Source: a virus. From it: DNA of 33,377 bases. Made by a program: the position numbers and the translations under genes. The notes beneath the pieces are model-generated. The model was given only the letters and a program-made list of their open reading frames with translations, had not been told where the DNA came from and did no database searches. Positions 1 to 30,894 of this stretch are shown here, piece after piece (positions within the stretch are counted from its first letter, which is position 1; each line of letters opens with the position of its first letter). The stretch lies in IMG/VR virus record IMGVR_UViG_3300030102_002688, positions 1-33,377 of that record, one strand, 5' to 3'.

Positions 1-2
1 CA

Positions 3-2594
3 GGCGGAGGAACTACTGCAATAGCTAGTTCATCATTTGGAGGTAATGCAGCATTAGGGGACAACAACGGCACTCTTGACCTTGACTTTGACCTTGTTAT
101 AGCAGCTAACGGAACTTTGTCAGCACCAAGAGGCACAATAACTTTAGTACGTAACTTTCAGAACTCTGGTACATTTACACACAATAGCGGAACCTTTGAG
201 ACAGTAAGTGGAGATAATACACTGATAAATACCACTGGAACTGCACCAATTACATTTCACAACTTCACATACAGTGGAGGGGCTTTTACACAGATTTACA
301 GAGATACAACTGTAGAAAATGCACTTACGATTAGTACAGGTCATTTTAAATTAAACAACAGTTCCAATGCAGTTACACTTACGATTGGTACTACATCAGC
401 AGCAGGTTCTATTGTCAACAACGGTACGTTAAGTGTAGACAATTCAGGTACTAACAAGCCTACAGTACAGGGAGCATCGAATTTATTTCCTGCGGTATGT
501 ACGGGAACTGATTGGGATTGGAATGCAAATTCCGCAGCAGATTGGAAGTTAGCTAATTTAGATTATCAGATAGCACTTGTAACAGGTTCAGGTTCAGCAT
601 CAGAGAAAATAACACTTACAGGAGATTGTGAGTTTGATGCCGTAACAGTAAGTAGTGGATATACTTTAGATTTGAATGGACAGAGGGCTGAGTTTAGTGG
701 TACTTTAGACGTAGATGGGACATTAGATGCAGATGGTCAAATTTATTTTACAGGTTCAGGAACTATGGATGATGATGGCACAATTAACAATCCTAATTTA
801 TTAACTTTAGTTCAACAAGGAACTTCAACTACTACAATGGATTTACCAGACAGTAATTTAATAAAAACATTATTCTATAATCAACCAAGTGCAGCTCAGA
901 GTGCGACAAGTCATAGATTTGGGATACAACATATTGTAGGTGCAGGGACGTGGCAATTTGCATCAAGTGCGACAGGCACAACAACAGACCTTACAGTAGC
1001 AACAGGAGCCACTTTATCAGAGGCAGATGGTACTATATCAGTAGCAGGAGATTTTACTACCAGTGGTGGTCTTGTCAATTTAAGTGCTTTTAAAGGAGTT
1101 CACGATGACAAAGACTTAATTGAGGTACCAGACCACGCAGATTTAGATTTTACAAATACGTTTACAGCAGAAATTTGGTTTAAATGTACTCGAAATGATG
1201 TGCATCAGTATTTATTCGATAGAAGAGGTGGTTCAAGTGGGACAGCTAAATCTTGGTTTTTATATTTAGATACAGATAATGGGCAGCTCAGTGCGAGAAT
1301 AAGGTCTACGTCTACAGCAGCAGGAACCACTTGGAAAGGTAATTCTACTAACTTAGATGATGGAAAATGGCATCACGCTGCACTAGTATATGATAAAGAT
1401 GCTGCCGATGGAAGAACTAAACTATATGTTGATGGTAAATTAGATTTTATTGATGATACTGCTGAAGGGCCATTAAGTGCAGACGATTCTAATTTATACA
1501 TAGGTGGTAGATTTAGTTACGCATTTACTTGGGATGGTAATTTGGCAGAGCCAAGACTTTGGAGTGTAGCAAGGACTCAAGCTCAAATAAGAGCAGATAT
1601 GTTTAACAGTGACACTTTAGCTAACAGCACAGGTTTAGTTGGTCAGTGGAAAATGACTGAAGGCACAGGTTCTACTTTTGCTTCTACTAATACAAATCTA
1701 AATGGCACCGCAGTTTCTTATTCTACAGGTTCAGAGGTAGCAATTACAGATGCTTGGGCAGGAGCAGGAACATTTACCTATGGCACTTCTACACTTGTCA
1801 TGAGTGGTGACGGAACTATGAATATTCCAGCAGGGTTTGACGTATTTAATTTAACAGGCGGAGCATCAAGCAAAACAACTACTATTGCTTTACCGTCTAA
1901 TGGTTCTGATTTAGACGTTTATGGAACTTTAACTGTAGATGGTGGAACACTTACGGACACAAACAATGCAGATGTAATTATTAGAGGAACTGCTCCTCCA
2001 GTTGTAAATGGAAGTAGCACCTTAGAAAATCTTTGGAGAATACAAAACATAAGTAACATGACAATGCCCGCTACTACATACAATAATCTGCTAGTAACTT
2101 CAAGTTCTACTTGTACGTCAGGAGGCAACATGACATTTAACAGTGAATTAGAAGTAGCAAGCGGGTCAACCTTCAATGCTAATGGTAATACAATAGATGT
2201 AAAGATTTTAGATGTAAATGGTGGGACTTTAGATTTACGAAATTCAAACGTAACCTTTCAAAATAATGGTAAGTTACGTTTAGACGACGTTACATCAACA
2301 CTTTTGACGGGAAATACAACTATCACAGGTTTTGGCACAGGTACAGATAGGAATGCTGCACACGTTCCCTCTGGTGGCAACTATGAAGTAGTTGGAAACG
2401 TGGAGAAGCTAGACATACAGTCAGGTGGAGACCTTACAGTTATTGGAGCTGTAATAGATTGTATAGGTAGTATAAGACAATTCCATCACACCTTAGACAC
2501 TCAGCAGTTATTGGATGCAGATGAGGCAGGGGATGATGATCTTAGATTAGAGAAACCTGCTTTGGATAATGCAAACGAGTTACAGACAGGATGA
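3..2594 (+). CDS. Large adhesin/tail-fibre-like protein with LamG domain (5' partial)
   Basis: The frame is open to the left edge, so the N-terminus is missing; the first in-window start (TTG at 117) is not a credible start. The protein is Thr/Ser/Gly/Asn-rich with short repeating beta motifs such as GTLDVDGTLDADG, suggesting beta-helix or beta-solenoid segments. Counting from 117, residues 325-495 form a LamG/concanavalin-like jelly roll: an EIWFK strand, DGKWHHAALVYD (416-427), KLYVDG (435-440), then YIGGR and the closing LAEPRLWSVART. This fold usually binds glycans or proteins. It most likely recognises the host surface, for example S-layer glycans. It overlaps the next gene by 4 nt (ATGA). 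The virion location is inferred from its place beside capsid and tail genes. Confidence 0.8.
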   Translation, partial: GGGTTAIASSSFGGNAALGDNNGTLDLDFDLVIAANGTLSAPRGTITLVRNFQNSGTFTHNSGTFETVSGDNTLINTTGTAPITFHNFTYSGGAFTQIYRDTTVENALTISTGHFKLNNSSNAVTLTIGTTSAAGSIVNNGTLSVDNSGTNKPTVQGASNLFPAVCTGTDWDWNANSAADWKLANLDYQIALVTGSGSASEKITLTGDCEFDAVTVSSGYTLDLNGQRAEFSGTLDVDGTLDADGQIYFTGSGTMDDDGTINNPNLLTLVQQGTSTTTMDLPDSNLIKTLFYNQPSAAQSATSHRFGIQHIVGAGTWQFASSATGTTTDLTVATGATLSEADGTISVAGDFTTSGGLVNLSAFKGVHDDKDLIEVPDHADLDFTNTFTAEIWFKCTRNDVHQYLFDRRGGSSGTAKSWFLYLDTDNGQLSARIRSTSTAAGTTWKGNSTNLDDGKWHHAALVYDKDAADGRTKLYVDGKLDFIDDTAEGPLSADDSNLYIGGRFSYAFTWDGNLAEPRLWSVARTQAQIRADMFNSDTLANSTGLVGQWKMTEGTGSTFASTNTNLNGTAVSYSTGSEVAITDAWAGAGTFTYGTSTLVMSGDGTMNIPAGFDVFNLTGGASSKTTTIALPSNGSDLDVYGTLTVDGGTLTDTNNADVIIRGTAPPVVNGSSTLENLWRIQNISNMTMPATTYNNLLVTSSSTCTSGGNMTFNSELEVASGSTFNANGNTIDVKILDVNGGTLDLRNSNVTFQNNGKLRLDDVTSTLLTGNTTITGFGTGTDRNAAHVPSGGNYEVVGNVEKLDIQSGGDLTVIGAVIDCIGSIRQFHHTLDTQQLLDADEAGDDDLRLEKPALDNANELQTG

Positions 2595-2929: not shown

Positions 2930-3395
2930 ACACAAAATAAAACAATCATACAATAAGCTAAGTGCACTGTTAGTTTTCATAGCTAATGCATTTACTTTGA
3001 TGTATGTTGGTGGCATGCAATACAATGATGCCTTATGGTTTGGTTCGGTAAGTGGTGCTTTCACATACACTATACTATCCACGATAGCAGACTCTCAAGA
3101 TCTTGAGGATTTTGCAGAAAGAAAGAAAAAACCCTCGGGCTATCAAAACCAAGGAATGTTCAGTAATGCAATGAACTATATGGAAAACAGAACAGGCTGG
3201 GACATGAACCGTGACGGTCATGTAGGGCAACAGATCCCACCTAACATGATGCCATACCAACAATATCAACAACAGCAACAACCAATGCCTATGCCAGCCC
3301 AAGCTGGAGGATATATTAATCCAAGCACGGGTGAGTTGTTAGAGGCAGAACAAGGACCTCATATTGATAAGATAGCAAAGAAGGGTAAGAAATAG
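2913..3395 (+). CDS. Two-helix membrane protein with EF-hand-like loop and Gln/Met-rich tail
   Basis: 160 aa. Two hydrophobic segments (about residues 17-34 and 41-58) are followed by a soluble C-terminal half. Residues about 96-104 read DMNRDGHVG, close to the first half of a calcium-binding loop (D-x-N-x-D-G-x-V), although the usual acidic residue at position 12 is absent. A Gln/Pro/Met-rich stretch follows (YQQYQQQQQPMPMP), then a Lys-rich end. It is the first of three adjacent membrane-protein genes and overlaps the MscS-like gene by 1 nt. Its role is unknown; membrane location and partnership with the MscS-like protein are inferred. Confidence 0.65.
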   Translation: MDEAIKHKIKQSYNKLSALLVFIANAFTLMYVGGMQYNDALWFGSVSGAFTYTILSTIADSQDLEDFAERKKKPSGYQNQGMFSNAMNYMENRTGWDMNRDGHVGQQIPPNMMPYQQYQQQQQPMPMPAQAGGYINPSTGELLEAEQGPHIDKIAKKGKK

Positions 3396-4228
3396 TGGAA
3401 GAGGGTTTAGTTTTTGCATGGTTTATCGCAGTAGCGCTGGGAGTATCGGCGGCGATCAGCAGAGTTAAAAAACTAAATACCTTAGATTTTAAAATCCGAA
3501 GTTTACAAGGCAAGGCTGCGGCGCAAGTATTTGGCGTTGTAGGTGGTTTGGTATTTCTAGTAGGCCTAGCTGCATACAGCGGCGTATTGGCTAAAACAGA
3601 GTACATTGTGGGCTTCTCAGCACTTACCTATATCGCATTAAGTCAATATAGTCCAGTAAATACAGCATTTTCATTTTTAACAGTAGCATATAGAACAGAG
3701 TTTTCTATAGATGATTGGATACAAGTAAGTAACACGGCAGGATCAGTAAAGGGTAAAGTTAAAGATTTTACGATGAAAGGTGTAAGAATAAAGACTTTTG
3801 ACATGAGTGAGTGTATTATTGGTTGCGATGAATTATTACATTCTGTAGTAGAGAACCTTACGCCTACTGATCTATTTAGGTGGCAGACAACCTTGTCAGT
3901 ATCTAAAGCAATACCTGTAGAAACAGTAGAAACTATATGTAAGACTAAATTAGGAGAGCATCAACTTACAGAAATTATAGATGAAGAAGGATTTAAGCAA
4001 GAATCCTATCTTGAGTTTCATGATGACAAGTTAGATTTCAAACCAAATTACCGTAGGATAAGTATATTTACCTACCATCCTAAGTGGATCCCGATGCCTG
4101 AAGGAGCAGAACCCATCGGATACGAGGTCGCATACCAGCTTTCACGAGACTTTAAACGTGACATTTATGCAGCGATGGACTCTCAACAGATGTCGTACTT
4201 AGATACAAGTTTCGTGGTGACAAAATGA
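3395..4228 (+). CDS. MscS-like mechanosensitive channel family protein
   Basis: 277 aa with a GTG start that overlaps the previous stop. There are three hydrophobic segments (about residues 5-23, 41-66 and 70-98). The third runs into a beta domain: ALSQYSPVNTAFSFL, then R-x-x-F-x-I-D-D-W-I-Q-V, a G-S-V turn and a region ending VVENL near residue 155. This order matches the pore helix and beta domain of MscS (AL-x-x-x-x-x-N-x-x-x, then R-x-F-x-x-x-D-x-I-x-V, then G-x-V). The usual P-N of the beta domain is replaced by G-C-D. Residues 160-277 form a mixed alpha/beta tail as in MscS. MscS proteins open under membrane tension; in a virus this could serve osmotic control or exit from the cell. The fold is fairly well supported, the function is inferred. 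Confidence 0.7.
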   Translation: MEEGLVFAWFIAVALGVSAAISRVKKLNTLDFKIRSLQGKAAAQVFGVVGGLVFLVGLAAYSGVLAKTEYIVGFSALTYIALSQYSPVNTAFSFLTVAYRTEFSIDDWIQVSNTAGSVKGKVKDFTMKGVRIKTFDMSECIIGCDELLHSVVENLTPTDLFRWQTTLSVSKAIPVETVETICKTKLGEHQLTEIIDEEGFKQESYLEFHDDKLDFKPNYRRISIFTYHPKWIPMPEGAEPIGYEVAYQLSRDFKRDIYAAMDSQQMSYLDTSFVVTK

Positions 4229-4706: not shown

Positions 4707-5074
4707 TGGCTGGGCCACCACAGATGACGACCCTAGCACGAAAGTCCCCTCAACACACACAAACCGAGGAATCAAATAGTAGAGAAGTGGCTCCAGCCCC
4801 TAATGTTCTTACAAGACAACCAGTACAACAACAGATGATGCCAAGTGCGGAGGCAATGTCTGATGAAGAGTTGGATCTTTATGTAAAACGTCTCAGTATG
4901 AGACACAAAAGGCTATCACGAAAGTGGTGGGGGTTAAGGCGGAAACATGGCAAAGACGAGTGCCCTTATTGTGGCATGCTTACTGGAGGCGGGTTCTGTA
5001 AGTTACACCAACGTGACTACGATGAGTATCTCTCGGCTTTGTCAACCCGTCAGAATAGGAGGTTTGGACTATGA
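4706..5074 (+). CDS. Protein with disordered N-terminus and C-terminal zinc-finger motif
   Basis: 122 aa. The first 50 residues are Pro/Gln/Met/Thr-rich and look disordered. Residues 50-75 form a basic helix (KRLSMRHKRLSRKWWGLRRKHG). The C-terminal third holds CPYCGMLTGGGFCKLHQRD, a plausible C-x2-C...C-x2-H zinc site. The product is basic and could bind nucleic acid or act as a minor virion protein. It is coupled on both sides (TAATG upstream, ATGA downstream). Confidence 0.6.
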   Translation: MAGPPQMTTLARKSPQHTQTEESNSREVAPAPNVLTRQPVQQQMMPSAEAMSDEELDLYVKRLSMRHKRLSRKWWGLRRKHGKDECPYCGMLTGGGFCKLHQRDYDEYLSALSTRQNRRFGL

Positions 5075-5145: not shown

Positions 5146-5915
5146 GTGGATATGCAGGAAGTCCATCGGGTTATCTAAACCCAGTGGCAGTAGATAAGAT
5201 ACAGCATCCAGATTATGATGCTAAAGCAGCAGAGAATACGACAATGAGAATGGTACAGTACTTGTACCCTGTGATCAAGAACTCTGTAGAGATGTTAGAA
5301 GCATTGTGTAAGGAAACTGACGTACAGGTTCCAACAGATCTTAAGGATAACATGGAGTTCCTAAAGACAGTTTACAATACACAGATAGACTGGCATCCAA
5401 GAACTATGTACGGTGATGAGGCTGCGGAGGAGCTTAATGCTCGTCTCACCTTGCATGAAGAGTGGGCCACAGAGGACAATGCACATCATAGCGTATTGAA
5501 TTGGCAGAATCCTTATGGAAGCGATGGCCAACTCCAACAAGCTCCTGCCGTAACCCAACCTCAAATAAATCCATATCAACAACAAATGAATCCGTATGGA
5601 CAGCAGATGCCTATGCAGGGTGGCGCAAGTATGTTTAAACCTTGGACATGGTTTGGAGTAGGAACTGGTGCAGCAGTAGCACCACAGCCTTGGCAAATGC
5701 CACCTCCGCAGATAGATCAGTTGGCTAACGGAGAGCAATATTATACAGCAAATGGAGGAGGCCCTCCACCATTGGCAACACAGCAAGGTTACACTACGTT
5801 ACCTGTAGGTGCAATCGGATGGAACATGGCAGGACAACCAATCGACATGAATGGTATGGTTGTAGCAACTACTGGCGAAAAGTTAATGAACACAGCCCTC
5901 AGTAGGATATTGTAA
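5142..5915 (+). CDS. Probable virion-associated protein with Gln/Pro/Met-rich region
   Basis: 257 aa from the ATG at 5142, chosen because it overlaps the upstream stop; a GTG at 5130 is in frame but lies inside the upstream ORF. Residues 1-110 look helical (NSVEMLEALCKE, EELNARLTLHEEWA). A long Gln/Pro/Met/Gly-rich stretch follows (NPYQQQMNPYGQQMPMQGG) with aromatic residues (FKPWTWFG). Low-complexity tails of this type also occur in the proteins at 2913 and 4706. It lies directly upstream of the head-tail connector and overlaps it by 1 nt (TAATG), so a head or neck role is plausible. No family recognised. Confidence 0.55.
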   Translation: MSGYAGSPSGYLNPVAVDKIQHPDYDAKAAENTTMRMVQYLYPVIKNSVEMLEALCKETDVQVPTDLKDNMEFLKTVYNTQIDWHPRTMYGDEAAEELNARLTLHEEWATEDNAHHSVLNWQNPYGSDGQLQQAPAVTQPQINPYQQQMNPYGQQMPMQGGASMFKPWTWFGVGTGAAVAPQPWQMPPPQIDQLANGEQYYTANGGGPPPLATQQGYTTLPVGAIGWNMAGQPIDMNGMVVATTGEKLMNTALSRIL

Positions 5916-6661
5916 TGGTCTATTGCACACGTAACGATGTAGCAGCTTTTTTACAACTAGATGACTTTAGTGGTACTACTACACCATCAGATGGTGACGT
6001 AGATTCATTTATATCAATGGCAGAGTCCCGTGTAGAGCAACTTACAGATCATGCATGGGCAACTGCAAGGGCTAAAGAAGTAACAGAAGAACGTGTACGG
6101 GTACAGAGAGTAAGATCCAACGTAGTTAACTTAAGAGGTAGGATTCAGCTAAGGCATTATCCTATACTTACATTTTCACAACATGCAACACCTAGTTTTG
6201 CAAATACGAATGGCAGCATTCAGATATGGACAGGTGGTAGTTATGTTGATTTTTTAGATTCTGACAACGGTAAAACATTAGGTAGTTCGGTCACAGACAC
6301 GGGTAAGAATCTATTTGTCGACACAGAGAGAGGAATAATCTATATTGATAATTACTCTACTTTTAACATGGTCAATAGCAGTCCACAAGGAGTAGATGCT
6401 TATGTATCGTATAAGTATGCAACAGCAAATACACCAGAGGACATAAAATTGGCTACAATTTATTTTACGGCATCTATTATAGTTGCCAATGATGATCTAA
6501 ACGTATCTCAAACAACAGAAGGTTCTATGGACAACAGAACTAAATCAGAGAAGTTTGAAGAGATGGGAATGAAAATTCTGAAAGATCATCACAGGATTGA
6601 TCGGTCTATGGCAATGGCAAGAGCCATTGGTGGATTTGGGACTGGCATGGTTACTCCTTGA
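5915..6661 (+). CDS. Head-tail connector/adaptor protein (gp6-like)
   Basis: 248 aa. The N-terminus reads YCTRNDVAAFLQL...DGDVDSFISMAESRVEQLTDHAW, the typical opening of phage head-tail adaptors: a short helix, then a D-x-x-I/V-x-x-x-I-x-x-A-E-x-x-I-x-x-x-T segment. A beta-rich middle (about 85-165) and helical end follow. Such proteins form a ring under the portal. The position before the tail terminator-like gene and tail tube supports this. The beta insertion makes it longer than simple gp6 adaptors. It overlaps the next gene by 4 nt (TTGA). Confidence 0.65.
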   Translation: MVYCTRNDVAAFLQLDDFSGTTTPSDGDVDSFISMAESRVEQLTDHAWATARAKEVTEERVRVQRVRSNVVNLRGRIQLRHYPILTFSQHATPSFANTNGSIQIWTGGSYVDFLDSDNGKTLGSSVTDTGKNLFVDTERGIIYIDNYSTFNMVNSSPQGVDAYVSYKYATANTPEDIKLATIYFTASIIVANDDLNVSQTTEGSMDNRTKSEKFEEMGMKILKDHHRIDRSMAMARAIGGFGTGMVTP

Positions 6662-21667: not shown

Positions 21668-21819
21668 TCCGCATAGTAAGGAATGGAGTGGTAGTATTTG
21701 AGAGTGAAAATTTGTATGATATAGCAGATTGGTTATATTATGAGGAGAAAGAACCAAAGGCGTTGTCAGTAACGCCTAATAAGGAGGCATATGACAAGGC
21801 CCAAGCTAATAAACGGTGA
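21664..21819 (+). CDS. Small acidic protein (51 aa)
   Basis: GTG start overlapping the previous stop (GTGA). A strand pair (IRIVRNGVVVFES) and a short helix (YDIADWLYYEEKE). The last 29 nt overlap the methyltransferase gene and contain its AAGGAGG ribosome binding site (21781-21787). Function unknown. Confidence 0.45.
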   Translation: MIRIVRNGVVVFESENLYDIADWLYYEEKEPKALSVTPNKEAYDKAQANKR

Positions 21820-22762
21820 TGTTCGACAGGTTCTCAGTGAATTGGAGCCTGAGAGCGTACAATGTGTTGTTACATCACCACCATATTGGGGTCTTAGGGA
21901 CTATGGATCTGAGGGTCAGCTAGGATTAGAGGCTACTCCTGAAGGATATATAGACAATATGGTTGAGGTGTTTAGAGAGGTAAAAAAAGTTCTTAGAAAG
22001 GATGGTACAGTTTGGTTGAATATTGGAGACAATTACTTTGGAGGTGGACGTGGGGAGGATAGAAAGTACAAAGAGGCGTATGATTCGGTAGAAAATTCAA
22101 AGCCTGATTGGAAAAAAATAAAAGGACTTAAGCCAAAAGACCTAGTTGGCATACCTTGGCGGCTTGCATTAGCGTTACAGGCTGATGGTTGGTGGTTGAG
22201 GAATGATATAATTTGGAGTAAGCCAAATCCGATGCCTGAGCCTGTAAAGGATCGTCTAACAAAGAGTCACGAGTATATATTTTTACTTACAAAATCTAAA
22301 ACATACTATTACGATCATGAGTCAATAAAAGAACCGTATAGTGAGTCATCGATACAAAGGATAAATCAAGCTACGTTTGACACTCAACAAGGTGGCAGTA
22401 AGGATTATGGTAAAGTTTCGGTGCATTCTAAGAATACAAATTCGATAAGAGGTACGTTAGAGAAGTTTAAAGAGAACTTAGGTACAGGTAGAAATAGAAG
22501 GACAGTATGGGAGATAGTAACTAGGTCTTATCCAGAGGCGCACTTTGCTACATTTCCAGAAGAGATACCTGAAATTTGCATTAAGGCAGGAACAAAACTA
22601 GGAGATTTAGTTTTAGATCCGTTTGTGGGGTCTGGTACTACATGTGCTGTAGCGTCTAGGTTAGGTAGAGAGAGTATTGGTATAGATTTAAGCGAGGAAT
22701 ATCTTAAATTAGCCCGTAAAAGATGCAAGATTGAGAGTGAGAGTTTATTGAGCTATGTATAA
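21791..22762 (+). CDS. DNA methyltransferase (beta-class, N4-cytosine type likely)
   Basis: 323 aa. Motif IV SPPYWGLRDYG is near residues 29-39, and motif I DPFVGSGTT near 276-284 is followed by GRESIGIDLSEEYLKLA. The order IV then I is the beta class. SPPY rather than DPPY favours N4-cytosine methylation, although this family also includes adenine enzymes. AAGGAGG lies 3 nt before the ATG. No cognate endonuclease is obvious, so it may protect viral DNA from host restriction or mark it for packaging. It overlaps TerL by 8 nt. Confidence 0.8.
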   Translation: MTRPKLINGDVRQVLSELEPESVQCVVTSPPYWGLRDYGSEGQLGLEATPEGYIDNMVEVFREVKKVLRKDGTVWLNIGDNYFGGGRGEDRKYKEAYDSVENSKPDWKKIKGLKPKDLVGIPWRLALALQADGWWLRNDIIWSKPNPMPEPVKDRLTKSHEYIFLLTKSKTYYYDHESIKEPYSESSIQRINQATFDTQQGGSKDYGKVSVHSKNTNSIRGTLEKFKENLGTGRNRRTVWEIVTRSYPEAHFATFPEEIPEICIKAGTKLGDLVLDPFVGSGTTCAVASRLGRESIGIDLSEEYLKLARKRCKIESESLLSYV

Positions 22763-24230
22763 GGCAGACCAGAACGACATAACCAGGTTAGTTGCTAGTG
22801 CTTTGGATTTAGCATCGGAGAAGCCACTTACGATGGGAGAGTTTGCAGAATCTATTTTACAGAGCTATATGGATCAGGAGCCTACAGACTTTGTACCGCT
22901 TGGTGATATGCACAGAGAGTGGGAAGAGTTGTTTAACAAAGGCACACACACAGCTATAATGTGCGCTAGGGGCCATTTAAAGACCAGTTGGAGCCTTGCA
23001 GTACTTGCTTACCACATGGCGACTTTCAAGAACTTTAGAGCGTTGTATATTTCAGCAACGCTAGAACAGGCATGGGACAAGTTAGAACAGTTTGAAGAAC
23101 TTTGCAAACGATCTTGGAGGCTTGAAGGTTACGTCAGATCTACAGATGACAGAAGAGCAGTATGGCGTAAGGGTGCTAAGTATTTCAACAACGGGTCTAG
23201 GGTGCATGGTGCAAGTATTGGTAAGGCACTTGAGGGTCCGCACGTTCACATGATAATTCTTGACGATATATTGCAAGAATTTCCTAACTTAACAGATGAG
23301 AAGGTTATACATTACATTCGTAGAGTTGTGATGCCCATGAGGCTTCCTGATGCTAAGATGTTATTGATAGGTACACAGAAGAGAGTAGGAGATGCTACAG
23401 ATTGGGTAGAGCAAAACAAGATGTGGAATACAGTAAGACACCCAGCTTTACTTAACGATGACACTCCTAGGTGGCCTGAGTATTGGACATACGACAGGCT
23501 GATGGATGAGAAAGAAACGATGGGATCCAGAGCATTTGAGTCTGAGTATATGTTAAATCCATTGGACCCAGAGAGTGCAGTTATTCCTTACGAGATACTA
23601 AATGCTTGTTTGGACAAGGGCTTGGAGATGGGTACAGCGCCAGCTAACGATGATTGGGATACTTACATGGGTGTTGATCTTGCGGTAGGTATGGACAGTA
23701 AGAATGACGAGACTGCGTATGTGATTATGGGATATAACAAGAATACACAAGAGCGTAGAGTGCTGTATGCTTGGTCAGGTAAGATATATGCTAAAGGTCA
23801 GGGTTGGCTAGAGGCCCAAGTAGTTAGTATGAAAGAGTTAGCGGAGCGTTTTAATCCAAGTAAAATTATGGTAGAGTCTAACGGATATCAGAGGCTTGTA
23901 GTACATGCAGCAGCAGACTTGGCAGGGTTGCCAGTAGTAGGCCACAATACAGGTAGAGAAAAGCACAGACATGACGTAGGTATACCACTTATCGCACTTA
24001 AGATGGAGCAAGAAAAGTATGCAATACCTTGGAATAAAGAAGCGACAGAAGGCAGTAGACCAGGTACACGTAAGTTAGTAGACGGTCTTAGCAGACTTAT
24101 TTACGGTAAGAACGGTAGGCTTGAGGGTCACACGCCTGATGCAGTTATGGCCTTGTGGATGTGTGAGTTAGCTATACATGATGATCACAAGCGTAAGCTA
24201 AACTATACAAAGTGGGATTATTTTGCATGA
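22755..24230 (+). CDS. terL: Terminase large subunit
   Basis: 491 aa, usual length. ATPase part: Walker A ARGHLKTS (71-78), Walker B MIILDD (166-171), coupling motif GTQ (206-208). Nuclease part: D308 (MGVDLAVG), E374 (IMVESNGYQR) and D462 (TPDAVMALW), the three acidic residues of the RNase H-like fold. It packages and cuts viral DNA at the portal. It overlaps the methyltransferase upstream and the PAPS-reductase-like gene downstream (ATGA). Confidence 0.92.
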   Translation: MYKADQNDITRLVASALDLASEKPLTMGEFAESILQSYMDQEPTDFVPLGDMHREWEELFNKGTHTAIMCARGHLKTSWSLAVLAYHMATFKNFRALYISATLEQAWDKLEQFEELCKRSWRLEGYVRSTDDRRAVWRKGAKYFNNGSRVHGASIGKALEGPHVHMIILDDILQEFPNLTDEKVIHYIRRVVMPMRLPDAKMLLIGTQKRVGDATDWVEQNKMWNTVRHPALLNDDTPRWPEYWTYDRLMDEKETMGSRAFESEYMLNPLDPESAVIPYEILNACLDKGLEMGTAPANDDWDTYMGVDLAVGMDSKNDETAYVIMGYNKNTQERRVLYAWSGKIYAKGQGWLEAQVVSMKELAERFNPSKIMVESNGYQRLVVHAAADLAGLPVVGHNTGREKHRHDVGIPLIALKMEQEKYAIPWNKEATEGSRPGTRKLVDGLSRLIYGKNGRLEGHTPDAVMALWMCELAIHDDHKRKLNYTKWDYFA

Positions 24231-25039
24231 GACCTATACTTCTTAGTTATGGTGGCGGTATAAATTCGACAGCGTTATTGCTAGAATGGATAAAACAAGG
24301 TAAGCAATTAGATTTAGTTATATTTGCAGATACAGGTTCAGAGATGCCTGAGACTTACGAGTTTATAGACAAGTATGTCAAACCTTTTTGTAAGGAACAT
24401 AGTCTTCCTTTTGAAACTGCGTTTTACACTGCATCAAATAGAGTGGCTGGAGTTAAAGAGGGCCATTGGCAAGAAAACGAAAGAGTATCTATATACGATT
24501 ATTATGATTATCAAAAAGCAGTACCTTCAGTTCGACAACGATCTTGTACTGATAAATTTAAAGTAGAGCCTATAGAAAAATACATAAAAAAGAAATGGGG
24601 CGATAAGAAGTATCCTTTGCGTTTGATCGGTATAGATGCAGGGGAAAGTCATCGTGCTAGGTACATAACAGACCCACTTACTGGAGAAAAAGAAAAGTTG
24701 TATGAGCACAATGAATATCCTTTGATAGATTGGGGCTGGGATCGTAACGCATGTCTTGCTAGGATAGAAGAAGAGGGTTGGTCAAACCCAGGCAAGTCAG
24801 GTTGTTTTTTTTGTCCGTTTCAAAAGAAAAAAACTTGGGCTGATTTGTTAAAAAATAAACCAGATTTATTTGACAAGTCAATGCGTTTGGAAAGTCAAGG
24901 TAAACGGTTTCCTGAGTTTCAATTAATGCAAGTTAAACCAAAAAGGCTTGATTGGTTTAAGAAAGCAATGGAGTCGCAAACTTCTATTATGGATTTTGAT
25001 GAAGATCCTAATATACCCTGTGCTTGTTATGATGGATAA
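24227..25039 (+). CDS. PAPS-reductase-like PP-loop ATPase
   Basis: 270 aa from the ATG overlapping TerL's stop; an earlier in-frame start at 24212 lies inside terL. The PP-loop reads SYGGGINSTAL (7-17), a variant of SGGxDS, followed by DLVIFADTGSEMPETYEF typical of adenine-nucleotide alpha hydrolases. Cysteines C107 (RSCTDKFKV), C193/C196 (GCFFCPF) and C265/C267 (CAC) could bind a metal or an iron-sulfur cluster. Relatives in phages are called phosphoadenosine phosphosulfate reductases, and DndC of DNA phosphorothioation belongs to the same superfamily. No other Dnd genes are visible. A nucleic-acid modification role is an inference. Confidence 0.75.
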   Translation: MRPILLSYGGGINSTALLLEWIKQGKQLDLVIFADTGSEMPETYEFIDKYVKPFCKEHSLPFETAFYTASNRVAGVKEGHWQENERVSIYDYYDYQKAVPSVRQRSCTDKFKVEPIEKYIKKKWGDKKYPLRLIGIDAGESHRARYITDPLTGEKEKLYEHNEYPLIDWGWDRNACLARIEEEGWSNPGKSGCFFCPFQKKKTWADLLKNKPDLFDKSMRLESQGKRFPEFQLMQVKPKRLDWFKKAMESQTSIMDFDEDPNIPCACYDG

Positions 25040-28262: not shown

Positions 28263-28795
28263 TGGTTAAGATAACAATGGATTTCGATCCTAATCTTACC
28301 AACGTTCGTGATGATTTTAATTTGATGCCTGACGCAATAATGGAAGTTACAGCAGATGCAATAGAGCAAACTGCGTTAGACATAAAAGGCGATGTAGTAA
28401 GTGAGATGAATCAGCCATATCCTCAAGGTTTAGGATCTGACAGAGCACTTAAACTAGCTGTAGAAATAGATGGCAATAGAGAACTTGCTAATGGTTTAGT
28501 TACTTATTATGTAGGTACAAAATTGCCTTATGCACAATACGTTGAGTATGGATCTGGCCCTCATAATACAGAGGGAGATGGTTCATTTACAGAAAGTATA
28601 ATAGAATGGACAAGAAGAGTTTTAGGCGGCGATAAACATGATGCTTTTTTAATTGCTAAAAATATAAGAAAAAACGGATTAAAACCTAGACCTTACTTTA
28701 GAAGAGCTGTAGTAAAAGAAGCACCTAATTTTAAACTTACATGGTCAACTATGTTAGCAGAAAGGCTAGAAGCTGAGTTTGAAAACATAACGTAG
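28262..28795 (+). CDS. HK97 gp10-like head-tail joining / tail completion protein
   Basis: 177 aa. An N-terminal helix (AIMEVTADAIEQTALDIKGDV) is followed by strands with GLVTYYVGTKLPYAQYVEYGSGP, and the end reads GLKPRPYFRRAVVKEA. The Y-A-x-Y-V-E-Y-G-S/T...R-P-Y/F-F-R/L-x-A signature is that of HK97 gp10-type neck proteins. It would act at the head-tail junction, yet it is encoded with portal and MuF rather than with the tail. It is followed by the putative origin and a terminator-like hairpin. Confidence 0.75.
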   Translation: MVKITMDFDPNLTNVRDDFNLMPDAIMEVTADAIEQTALDIKGDVVSEMNQPYPQGLGSDRALKLAVEIDGNRELANGLVTYYVGTKLPYAQYVEYGSGPHNTEGDGSFTESIIEWTRRVLGGDKHDAFLIAKNIRKNGLKPRPYFRRAVVKEAPNFKLTWSTMLAERLEAEFENIT

Positions 28796-28824
28796 AGACA
28801 CACACCTTTGTTTCCACTGGAACT
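28796..28824 (-). repeat. ORB-like element, left arm (minus orientation)
   Basis: On the minus strand this reads AGTTCCAGTGGAAACAAAGG followed by TGTGTGTCT. TTCCAGTGGAAAC-AAAGG closely follows the archaeal origin recognition box as I remember it (TTCCAGTGGAAACgAAAGGGGG). It pairs with 28917-28945 as an inverted repeat with 26 of 29 identical bases. Confidence 0.8.
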
Positions 28825-28856
28825 ATTACAAGGTGTCTCGTTATTTTTTTTTTAGT
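28802..28856 (+). terminator. Terminator-like hairpin after the head operon
   Basis: ACACCTT (28802-28808) pairs with AAGGTGT (28830-28836), enclosing a small inner hairpin (TTCC-ACT-GGAA). A T-rich run (28841-28853) follows, so plus-strand transcription from the portal operon may end here. It overlaps the left ORB-like arm. Confidence 0.5.
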
Positions 28857-28916
28857 TTTTAGAGGGGTACGGCGGCTTATTAGCTATATAAGATATATTC
28901 TTTCTTATATAATAAA

Positions 28917-28945
28917 AGTTCCAGTGGAAATGAAGGTGTCTGTCT
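28917..28945 (+). repeat. ORB-like element, right arm (plus orientation)
   Basis: Reads AGTTCCAGTGGAAATGAAGG followed by TGTCTGTCT; the first 14 bases are identical to the left arm on the opposite strand. AAGGTGTCT also occurs alone at 28830-28838. Confidence 0.8.
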
Positions 28946-28966
28946 CTCTCCGAAACAGTAAAAAAC

Positions 28967-28995: not shown

Positions 28996-30894
28996 GTGGC
29001 AGTACGCACTATCTTTAAAGAAAACGAGAACGATACAGGTTGGATAGTCTACAGGCCCGAATGGTATAACGAGAGAGTTATGGAGACTTATATCTCTGCA
29101 CCTATAATAGATAAACAAAACGACAAGATCCCTACAGAGACAATAAAAGAGTCTATGGATTTTTACATGAAGTATGGTGTATATTCATACAGACATGAAG
29201 AACAACCAATAGGATTACCGTTAGCTTATAAAGTAAAAAACGGGAAAGTTAAAGTTAGAGTAGGAATACATGATAAATTGTCCATGCACAACAAAGTATG
29301 GAAGGAGATTCAAGAATTTGGCTCTACAGGAGCTAGTAGCATTAGGGGTGAAGCAATGGATCAGGAGAAAGTTTGTGATGAGGATAGCTGCCACAATCAA
29401 ATCAATGAACTAGATCTCTGGTCTGTTTCTTGGGTAGGAGACAATCCTGCTAACCCCGAAGCTACCGTTAGACAAGTAGCAATGGCTAAATCTAAATCTA
29501 CTGTACAAGTAACACTTGACGAAGTAGAGAGTATGGTTGAGAAAATCATAGAGCGTAAGAATGGTAAGTATTGTCTTTTTGCTAAAAAGGATAGAAGGTT
29601 ACTAGGATGTCACGATACTAGAGCAGGTGCGATCAGACAAGAAAGAGCTATACAAGCACGTAGATACAGTAAATCTAAAGATATACTTGATGATATACTT
29701 AAAAGCATAAACCTAGTAAAAGCAGCAGATGATCCTAAGACACCAGCAAAACCAAGTGAAAGGAGAAGAGGTAGCACTAGAAACCCTAGAGGATCTGCTG
29801 GTGCAACTCGTGGAGGTATCAAGTTAAGTGCTGCAAATATTAAGACATTAGAGAATTACAGAGATGAACACAACAAGAAAGTTGGTAACGCTAAAGGGAA
29901 AAAGGCTAATCTTGGAGCATTGAAAGCAGTGTTCCGTAGGGGTGCTGGAGCATTCTCCACCAGCCACCGTCCTAGTGTACGTAGCCGAGACCAGTGGGCA
30001 TTAGGTCGTGTAAAAGCATTCTTAAGACTACTAAGTTCAGGTAGGCCTTCAAATCCTAAGTATACTACAGATTACGATTTATTGCCTACTAGTCATCCCA
30101 AATCTACAAAGAAAGCAGATGATGGTCCAGTTAAAGTAAAAGCACCTTTAGGATATCATTGGATGCAGACACGTAATGGGCCTATGCTAATGGAGGGTGA
30201 TTACAAGCCTCATCCAGGTGCAGTAGAAGCTTTTGAGTTTGATGTCATAGGCAGTCATGAGGATGAAAGAATACTTAAGGCAGAATATCAAGGACGTAAA
30301 GTAGAATTAAACAAACCATTTAGGTTAAATGATGGTAAAAAGAAGTTTGGTGTATATGTTAAAAACGACAGGGGTAACATAGTACAAGTTAAGTTTGGAG
30401 ATCCTAACTTAGACATAAAACGTGATGATCCAGAAAGGCGTAGAAACTTTAGAGCAAGGCACAACTGCGACAACCCAGGTCCAAAATATAAAGCAAGATA
30501 TTGGTCATGCAGGATGTGGAGTAGCAAAAGAGTATCTGACATATTAGGTAAAGGTACAATGACTACAGTAAGTACAGAATCACTTAAGAAATCTAACGAT
30601 CATTTAAATGACATAATGCAAATGTTAGAAAAAGGAATAAGTATTTCTAAAAAGAAAACACCAGGTAAAGTATGGTTTGAAAATTGTTTATCTAATGTAA
30701 GAAGGTTAGAAAACATACCTAATAGACAAGAAGTAAGAGATGATAGAGCTTTTTGTTCAGAATTGTGGTATAATCCAGGTAGGTTTGATAAAACTTACAA
30801 AAAACCAGGCGGCGGTACAGGTAGAACGTCAGGTATGCAGTTTAGGTTAGATATGGGAACATCTACAGGTCCAAGTGGCTTGAGAGGTTTTTGA
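28996..30894 (+). CDS. Prohead protease fused to several small phage domains
   Basis: 632 aa, GTG start. Residues 1-160 resemble XkdF/S78-type prohead proteases: GWIVYRPEWYNERVMETYIS, YRHEEQPIG with the likely catalytic His67, GASSIRGEA, and ELDLWSVSWVGDNPANPEA with the likely catalytic Ser143 or Ser145. Four small domains known from phage head genes follow: YCLFAKKDRRLLGCHDTRAGA (about 192-225, first 20 residues shown in outline), a segment with FRRGAGAFSTSHRP (about 276-363), FGVYVK...RRNFRARHNCDNPG...ARYWSCRMW (about 450-508), and WFENCLSNV...DDRAFCSELW (about 560-591). The protease would cut scaffold and capsid proteins during maturation. The roles of the extra domains are unknown. Confidence 0.7.
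   Translation: MAVRTIFKENENDTGWIVYRPEWYNERVMETYISAPIIDKQNDKIPTETIKESMDFYMKYGVYSYRHEEQPIGLPLAYKVKNGKVKVRVGIHDKLSMHNKVWKEIQEFGSTGASSIRGEAMDQEKVCDEDSCHNQINELDLWSVSWVGDNPANPEATVRQVAMAKSKSTVQVTLDEVESMVEKIIERKNGKYCLFAKKDRRLLGCHDTRAGAIRQERAIQARRYSKSKDILDDILKSINLVKAADDPKTPAKPSERRRGSTRNPRGSAGATRGGIKLSAANIKTLENYRDEHNKKVGNAKGKKANLGALKAVFRRGAGAFSTSHRPSVRSRDQWALGRVKAFLRLLSSGRPSNPKYTTDYDLLPTSHPKSTKKADDGPVKVKAPLGYHWMQTRNGPMLMEGDYKPHPGAVEAFEFDVIGSHEDERILKAEYQGRKVELNKPFRLNDGKKKFGVYVKNDRGNIVQVKFGDPNLDIKRDDPERRRNFRARHNCDNPGPKYKARYWSCRMWSSKRVSDILGKGTMTTVSTESLKKSNDHLNDIMQMLEKGISISKKKTPGKVWFENCLSNVRRLENIPNRQEVRDDRAFCSELWYNPGRFDKTYKKPGGGTGRTSGMQFRLDMGTSTGPSGLRGF

Follow-up and report, generated by a model that had tools for sequence, protein, structure and literature searches.

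A paired element between neck and head genes

The DNA analysed here, referred to throughout as the window, is a viral stretch of 33,377 nucleotides (IMG/VR record IMGVR_UViG_3300030102_002688, positions 1 to 33,377), and its intergenic site between neck and head genes carries an inverted repeat whose two arms, at 28796-28824 and 28917-28945, are 29 bp long, match at 26 of 29 positions and lie 92 bp apart. These values agree exactly with those of a first-pass annotation, made without database searches, which had proposed an archaeal-type replication origin at this site; the similarity reaches somewhat further, to 35-nt arms (28794-28828 and 28913-28947) that are 89% complementary with 84 nt between them. 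Each arm consists of an ORB and an extension. The left one (28796-28824, minus strand) reads GTTCCAGTGGAAACAAAGGTGTGTGTCT in ORB direction, has its core at 28805-28822 and turns its G-rich side leftward, away from the spacer, and the right ORB with its extension (AGTTCCAGTGGAAATGAAGGTGTCTGTCT; 28917-28945, plus strand) reads GTTCCAGTGGAAATGAAGGTGTCTGTCT in its own ORB direction, has its core at 28919-28936 and turns its G-rich side rightward. Within the window, mismatch-free copies of TTCCAGTGGAAA occur only at 28811-28822 (minus strand) and 28919-28930 (plus strand), and TTCCANTGGAAAYRAAGG is matched exactly by both arms, with no third site even when three mismatches are allowed.

Between the ORBs lies a third conserved element, CGRCGGCTTATT (28870-28881), which the first-pass annotation had missed. 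It forms part of a central motif, TACGGCGGCTTATTA, at 28868-28882 on the plus strand (with CGRCGGSTTATT at 28870-28881), whose 3' end is 37 bp before the right ORB core. Those 37 bp (28882-28918) are a candidate unwinding element: they are 84% AT, a value reached by only 0.4% of the 37-bp stretches of the window, and they contain the TATATAAG/CTTATATA pair (at 28885 and 28904). On the other side of the motif is a left spacer of variable length (28825-28867, 70% AT), which holds a T-run (28844-28853) and half of a weak hairpin. The whole 92 bp between the arms is 73% AT, in the top 3% of the window, so that by composition the AT-rich unwinding region of an ORB-type origin is present between the ORBs, melting itself being inferred. 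The T-runs and the short inverted pair had both been described correctly beforehand, and the claimed overlap with a terminator-like hairpin proved weak (no match in a terminator scan, a DNA fold z of -2.2, and a spacer half that is not conserved). The downstream gene (28996-30894), earlier called a protease, was not confirmed as one.

Similarity to archaeal origins

We scored the window with a position weight matrix built solely from 10 published ORBs of Methanomassiliicoccales (PMC4153887). The right arm scored 31.5 bits (28918, plus strand) and the left arm 28.7 bits (28802, minus strand), compared with 7.6 bits for the next-best site in the window and 18.9 bits for the best of 300 dinucleotide shuffles; the arms thus pass the matrix check that the earlier annotation had suggested. 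Both contain the ORB core TTCCANTGGAAA followed by the R-A-A-G-G tract, and the right arm, GTTCCAGTGGAAATGA-AGGTGT, is a single base from ORB3 of 'Ca. M. intestinalis', GTTCCAGTGGAAATGA-AGGGGT (PMC4153887, Table 2). Where the G-string GGGGT would be expected, the boxes end in GGTGTSTGTC. The same extension variant is found in ORBs of Marine Group III archaea, and we therefore consider a lineage variant likelier than loss of the G-string.

A 21-letter pattern spanning both arms was run over about 85,000 prokaryote species genomes and matched at least 119 stretches. Among the 80 of these 119 that were listed, 79 were named archaeal, and the lone exception, a 3-kb contig labelled 'Omnitrophota' (L217), has an archaeal-type Orc1/Cdc6 gene and an ORB, and is probably mis-binned archaeal DNA. 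An orc1/cdc6 gene lay inside the fetched 8 kb in 54 of the 119 stretches and within 1 kb of the match in 40. Since its matches are almost exclusively archaeal and often beside orc1/cdc6, the pattern recognises archaeal origin sequences. That adjacency is not seen in the virus, as neither the window nor its relatives yielded an orc1/cdc6 gene; it is typical of chromosomal origins and would be unnecessary for a site served in trans. In two Poseidoniales genomes (L188, around position 5036, and L193, around 4262) an ORB immediately precedes an MCM-like helicase gene and does not adjoin orc1/cdc6.

The polarity of the two boxes was misjudged in the earlier description: it had them pointing inward, and in ORB polarity their G-rich sides point outward, away from the AT-rich core. 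This minus/plus arrangement predominates among the ORB pairs of the loci scanned. In the 94 viral loci with the pattern, pairs less than 400 bp apart comprised 56 minus/plus and one plus/minus, and in archaeal genomes the corresponding numbers were 28 and two. Oppositely oriented ORBs are proposed to direct two MCM complexes onto the intervening DNA (PMC6742236), and in the experimentally tested oriC1 of Haloarcula hispanica the mutated letters (CCCCCC in the left box and GGGGGGGG in the right box; PMC3936714) lead us to infer that there, as in the virus, the G-rich sides face outward. The outward polarity is thus that expected of an archaeal origin.

Conservation and relocation among related viruses

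The ORB pair is kept in dozens of related viral contigs, at no fewer than three genomic positions and in both orientations. In a sample of contigs selected by terminase and not by the motif, the pair was present in all seven contigs that cover the junction between the neck gene and the next gene, and in both contigs of a second lineage that cover that lineage's own junction; the expectation of the first-pass annotation that related contigs would share the pair is therefore borne out. Conservation is concentrated in the proposed functional parts. Among 25 distinct sequences of the window's lineage, pairwise identity is 99% in the right ORB core and 98% in its extension, 94% and 93% in their left counterparts, and 90% in the central 21-bp segment, whereas each spacer reaches 71% and the flanking sequence 67-70%. 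When the module was compared at the nucleotide level with 50,697 phage records, only chance matches were returned.

In the second lineage (terminase 69-73% identical) the module is found at the border of the early region, next to a tail-region gene; a third lineage (53-54%) has it 1-2 kb upstream of its terminase genes, and in several contigs (e.g. L036, L058, L104 and L128) the whole module is flipped relative to the genes. Because it relocates and inverts among sister lineages, a gene-specific operator or terminator is unlikely, and the earlier suggestion that replication is linked to transcription of the head genes is not supported.

What remains fixed is the internal geometry. Of 53 viral pairs, 50 enclose the motif CGRCGNVTTRTT. 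A distance of 35-40 bp (37 bp in the window) separates its 3' end from the core of the nearer ORB, and it is the spacer on the other side that varies in length between lineages, giving ORB spacings of 102-198 bp.

Outward ORB pairs were also noticed in tailed-virus contigs unrelated by terminase (L120 and L164, spacing 113; L119 and L122, spacing 345). These differ in their extensions (GGTGGGG; GGGGGGGG), lack the CGRCGG motif, and suggest that ORB-type viral origins may exist for several hosts.

The module in Marine Group III genomes

The usual ending of canonical ORBs is GGGGT, and the variant with GGTGT and a TGTG-like tail surfaced in the genome scan in a Marine Group III archaeon (L179), at a locus that holds the complete module: ORB, TTCGACGGATTATT, 37 bp, ORB. 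We then ran the module pattern over 146 genomes of the class, 21 from Marine Group III and 125 others. The module with all three parts was present in seven of the 21 Marine Group III genomes, whose assemblies are fragmentary, and in none of the 125 others, where pattern matches had no ORBs beside them. Of the remaining Marine Group III genomes, G031 has an ORB pair without a clear motif and G032 two weak boxes at pair spacing.

Of the seven loci in Marine Group III for which a pair was scored, six contained the central motif, at 37 bp from the ORB (41 bp in one locus); it was present in only one of 30 pairs from archaeal genomes, that one being again from Marine Group III. The window satisfies the Marine Group III layout in full, namely ORB on the minus strand, CGRCGNVTTRTT, about 37 bp, and ORB on the plus strand with a GGTGT-type extension. 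The extension beside the left ORB (AAGAGACACACACC in the host, GTAGAGACACACACC in the window) is also common to virus and archaeon, and CGRCGGCTTATT can be regarded as a newly recognised conserved part of a module present in both. The claim of a host-mimicking origin is in this respect supported, as the same three-part module does occur in Marine Group III chromosomes.

Several of the module-bearing genomes have, next to the module, a gene resembling MBL-fold hydrolases (so named by its sequence, with no family search behind the name). One strong Orc1/Cdc6 match is usual in these genomes, with two in G034 and two partial matches at contig ends in G004, and wherever both could be placed the module and cdc6 are on different contigs. 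Full-length orc1/cdc6 genes are present, for example, in the Marine Group III genomes G021 and G031. Where the module occurs, no stronger ORB pair was found in the genome; it is therefore the best candidate there for oriC, and may possibly be the Marine Group III oriC, although this is unproven; GC skew changes sign at the module in one contig (G031) and not in two others.

We consider an uncultured Marine Group III archaeon to be the likely host. A terminase (TerL) search for proviruses in the 21 Marine Group III genomes found none, and the evidence for the assignment is therefore the origin and GC content, with weak support from a tetranucleotide comparison that favours this group. Marine Group II was also considered as a host and set aside: the Poseidoniales pair in G002 (C3:61596/61757) has no central motif between its boxes.

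Gene content of the virus and its relatives

Profile searches of the window and of all related viral loci detected neither Orc1/Cdc6 nor MCM, the only signals being three weak AAA+ matches in contigs that have no ORB pair. Nor was any replication family recognised among those proteins of the window that were tested or among the larger of the relatives' early proteins. The earlier statement that the window lacks a recognised replication gene thus stands for the proteins tested, and none of the refuting conditions set by the first-pass annotation was fulfilled. The families found instead were DNA methylases, a PAPS-reductase-like protein, nucleases and amidotransferase-like proteins. GC skew, which had been suggested as a further check, follows gene direction in the window and is uninformative about an origin.

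Judging from relatives, the complete genome is about 37 kb, of which the window lacks some 4 kb. The missing part is unlikely to hide an initiator, because in relatives the gap between the window ends is bridged by large ORFs of tail-fibre type. An initiator that escaped recognition nevertheless remains possible, since many of the viral proteins have no known function. The capsid and portal proteins are nearest (22-32% identity) to those of haloarchaeal tailed viruses and of viruses assigned to Methanofastidiosa and Methanomassiliicoccales.

Several other features of these genomes may be mentioned. The PAPS-reductase-like protein (24212-25039) and an N6/N4 DNA methylase (21791-22762) adjoin the terminase in the window, and some relatives have a C5 cytosine methylase in place of the N6/N4 type (L008, 6991-7899); these genes could form a DNA modification cassette, but only tentatively so. 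Very large, repetitive-looking tail-type ORFs (window 1-2594; L154 2-4213) vary among relatives, and the early region of L036 encodes a glutamine amidotransferase and an amidoligase (3144-4028 and 5351-6517).

Comparison with known systems

In oriC1 of Sulfolobus and of H. hispanica, as here, ORBs of opposite polarity flank an AT-rich core of about 100 bp. The viral module is close in size to the 130-bp ORB3-DUE-ORB2 region of Sulfolobus oriC1, in which both ORBs and a motif in the middle of the DUE are required (PMC12141716), so that Sulfolobus too has a motif within the spacer (ucm, bound by UBP). The virus differs from the oriC1 type in that no orc1/cdc6 was found, in the GGTGTSTGTC end, and in the placement of CGRCGGCTTATT 37 bp from one ORB instead of midway. 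In Methanomassiliicoccales most ORBs adjoin orc1/cdc6.1, and the relevant section of the published description mentions no central motif (PMC4153887).

Among viruses, those of Thermococcales are also without Orc1/Cdc6 (PMC12934983, a preprint), but many encode their own MCM, proposed to act in origin recognition and as helicase, and classical ORBs are reported to be lacking (PMC12934983); the virus described here differs in having ORBs, and no MCM was detected in it. Magroviruses, the viruses of Marine Group II, are likewise tailed viruses of marine Thermoplasmatota but have large genomes, and the marine archaeal Aoguangviridae are described as encoding most DNA replication components (PMC10768690), whereas in the present virus, at about 37 kb, none were found.

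Alternative explanations

One may also consider that the ORB pair is a decoy, which absorbs host Orc1/Cdc6 and stops host replication while the virus initiates elsewhere. There is precedent for titration, as ORB clusters in H. hispanica titrate the initiator and negatively control oriC2 (PMC3936714), and such a site would need nothing beyond ORBs. However, the window has two boxes only and no cluster, their opposed polarity is fixed, and the central motif at a fixed 37 bp would be needless for titration, so that we regard this scenario as unlikely.

Still less probable, in our view, is that the element controls transcription between the neck and head genes as a terminator, promoter or operator, its boxes bound by a regulator that might be an Orc1 paralogue. 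The site is indeed intergenic, with a T-run and TATA-like sequences, and a haloarchaeal Orc1 paralogue does act as a DNA-damage regulator (PMC9738581). Against this, sister lineages have the module beside other genes and in opposite orientation, the host copy is in a different gene context, and a scan for bacterial promoters and terminators returned nothing useful and no terminator. A packaging (pac/cos) or integration (att) site is similarly very unlikely. One lineage does carry the module just upstream of its terminase genes, and a sequence type common to host and virus is what one expects of att sites. Yet position relative to the terminase genes varies, and the module is present in host chromosomes, unlike pac sites; as for att, what virus and host have in common is limited to motifs and one distance, with no identical core, no integrase was recognised among the proteins tested, and the Marine Group III genomes yielded no provirus.

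A proposed viral origin

The sequence, polarity, geometry, conservation and mobility of the module, and its sharing with Marine Group III, are shown by the data above. That it serves as a viral replication origin of ORB type, mimicking that of Marine Group III and recruiting host Orc1/Cdc6 and MCM, is in our opinion the likely explanation, in the absence of any binding or initiation data. Under this origin model, host Orc1/Cdc6 would bind each ORB as a directional monomer, and the DNA between the ORBs would be underwound at the 84%-AT segment, perhaps aided by a host protein on CGRCGGCTTATT, by analogy with UBP at the ucm motif of Sulfolobus oriC1 (PMC12141716). Host MCM would then be loaded between the ORBs, host polymerases would copy the genome, and the resulting concatemers would be packaged by the viral terminase.

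A bolder reading, to which we incline by a narrow margin, is that archaeal tailed viruses of one family use for their replication a copy, captured or convergent, of their host's chromosomal origin, and that the undescribed third cis element of this origin type implies an as yet unknown origin factor in Marine Group III. ORB origins as such are already known, and what we did not find in the literature searched, the coverage of which was partial, is a virus that copies its host's type of origin, has no initiator of its own and carries a conserved third element.

Little is known of how DNA replication begins in archaeal viruses that have no replication genes, and the element provides a short and exactly bounded candidate for a viral origin. 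For the uncultured Marine Group III archaea it likewise supplies a candidate origin that includes a new conserved element, and origin type in general offers a way to pair viruses with their hosts.
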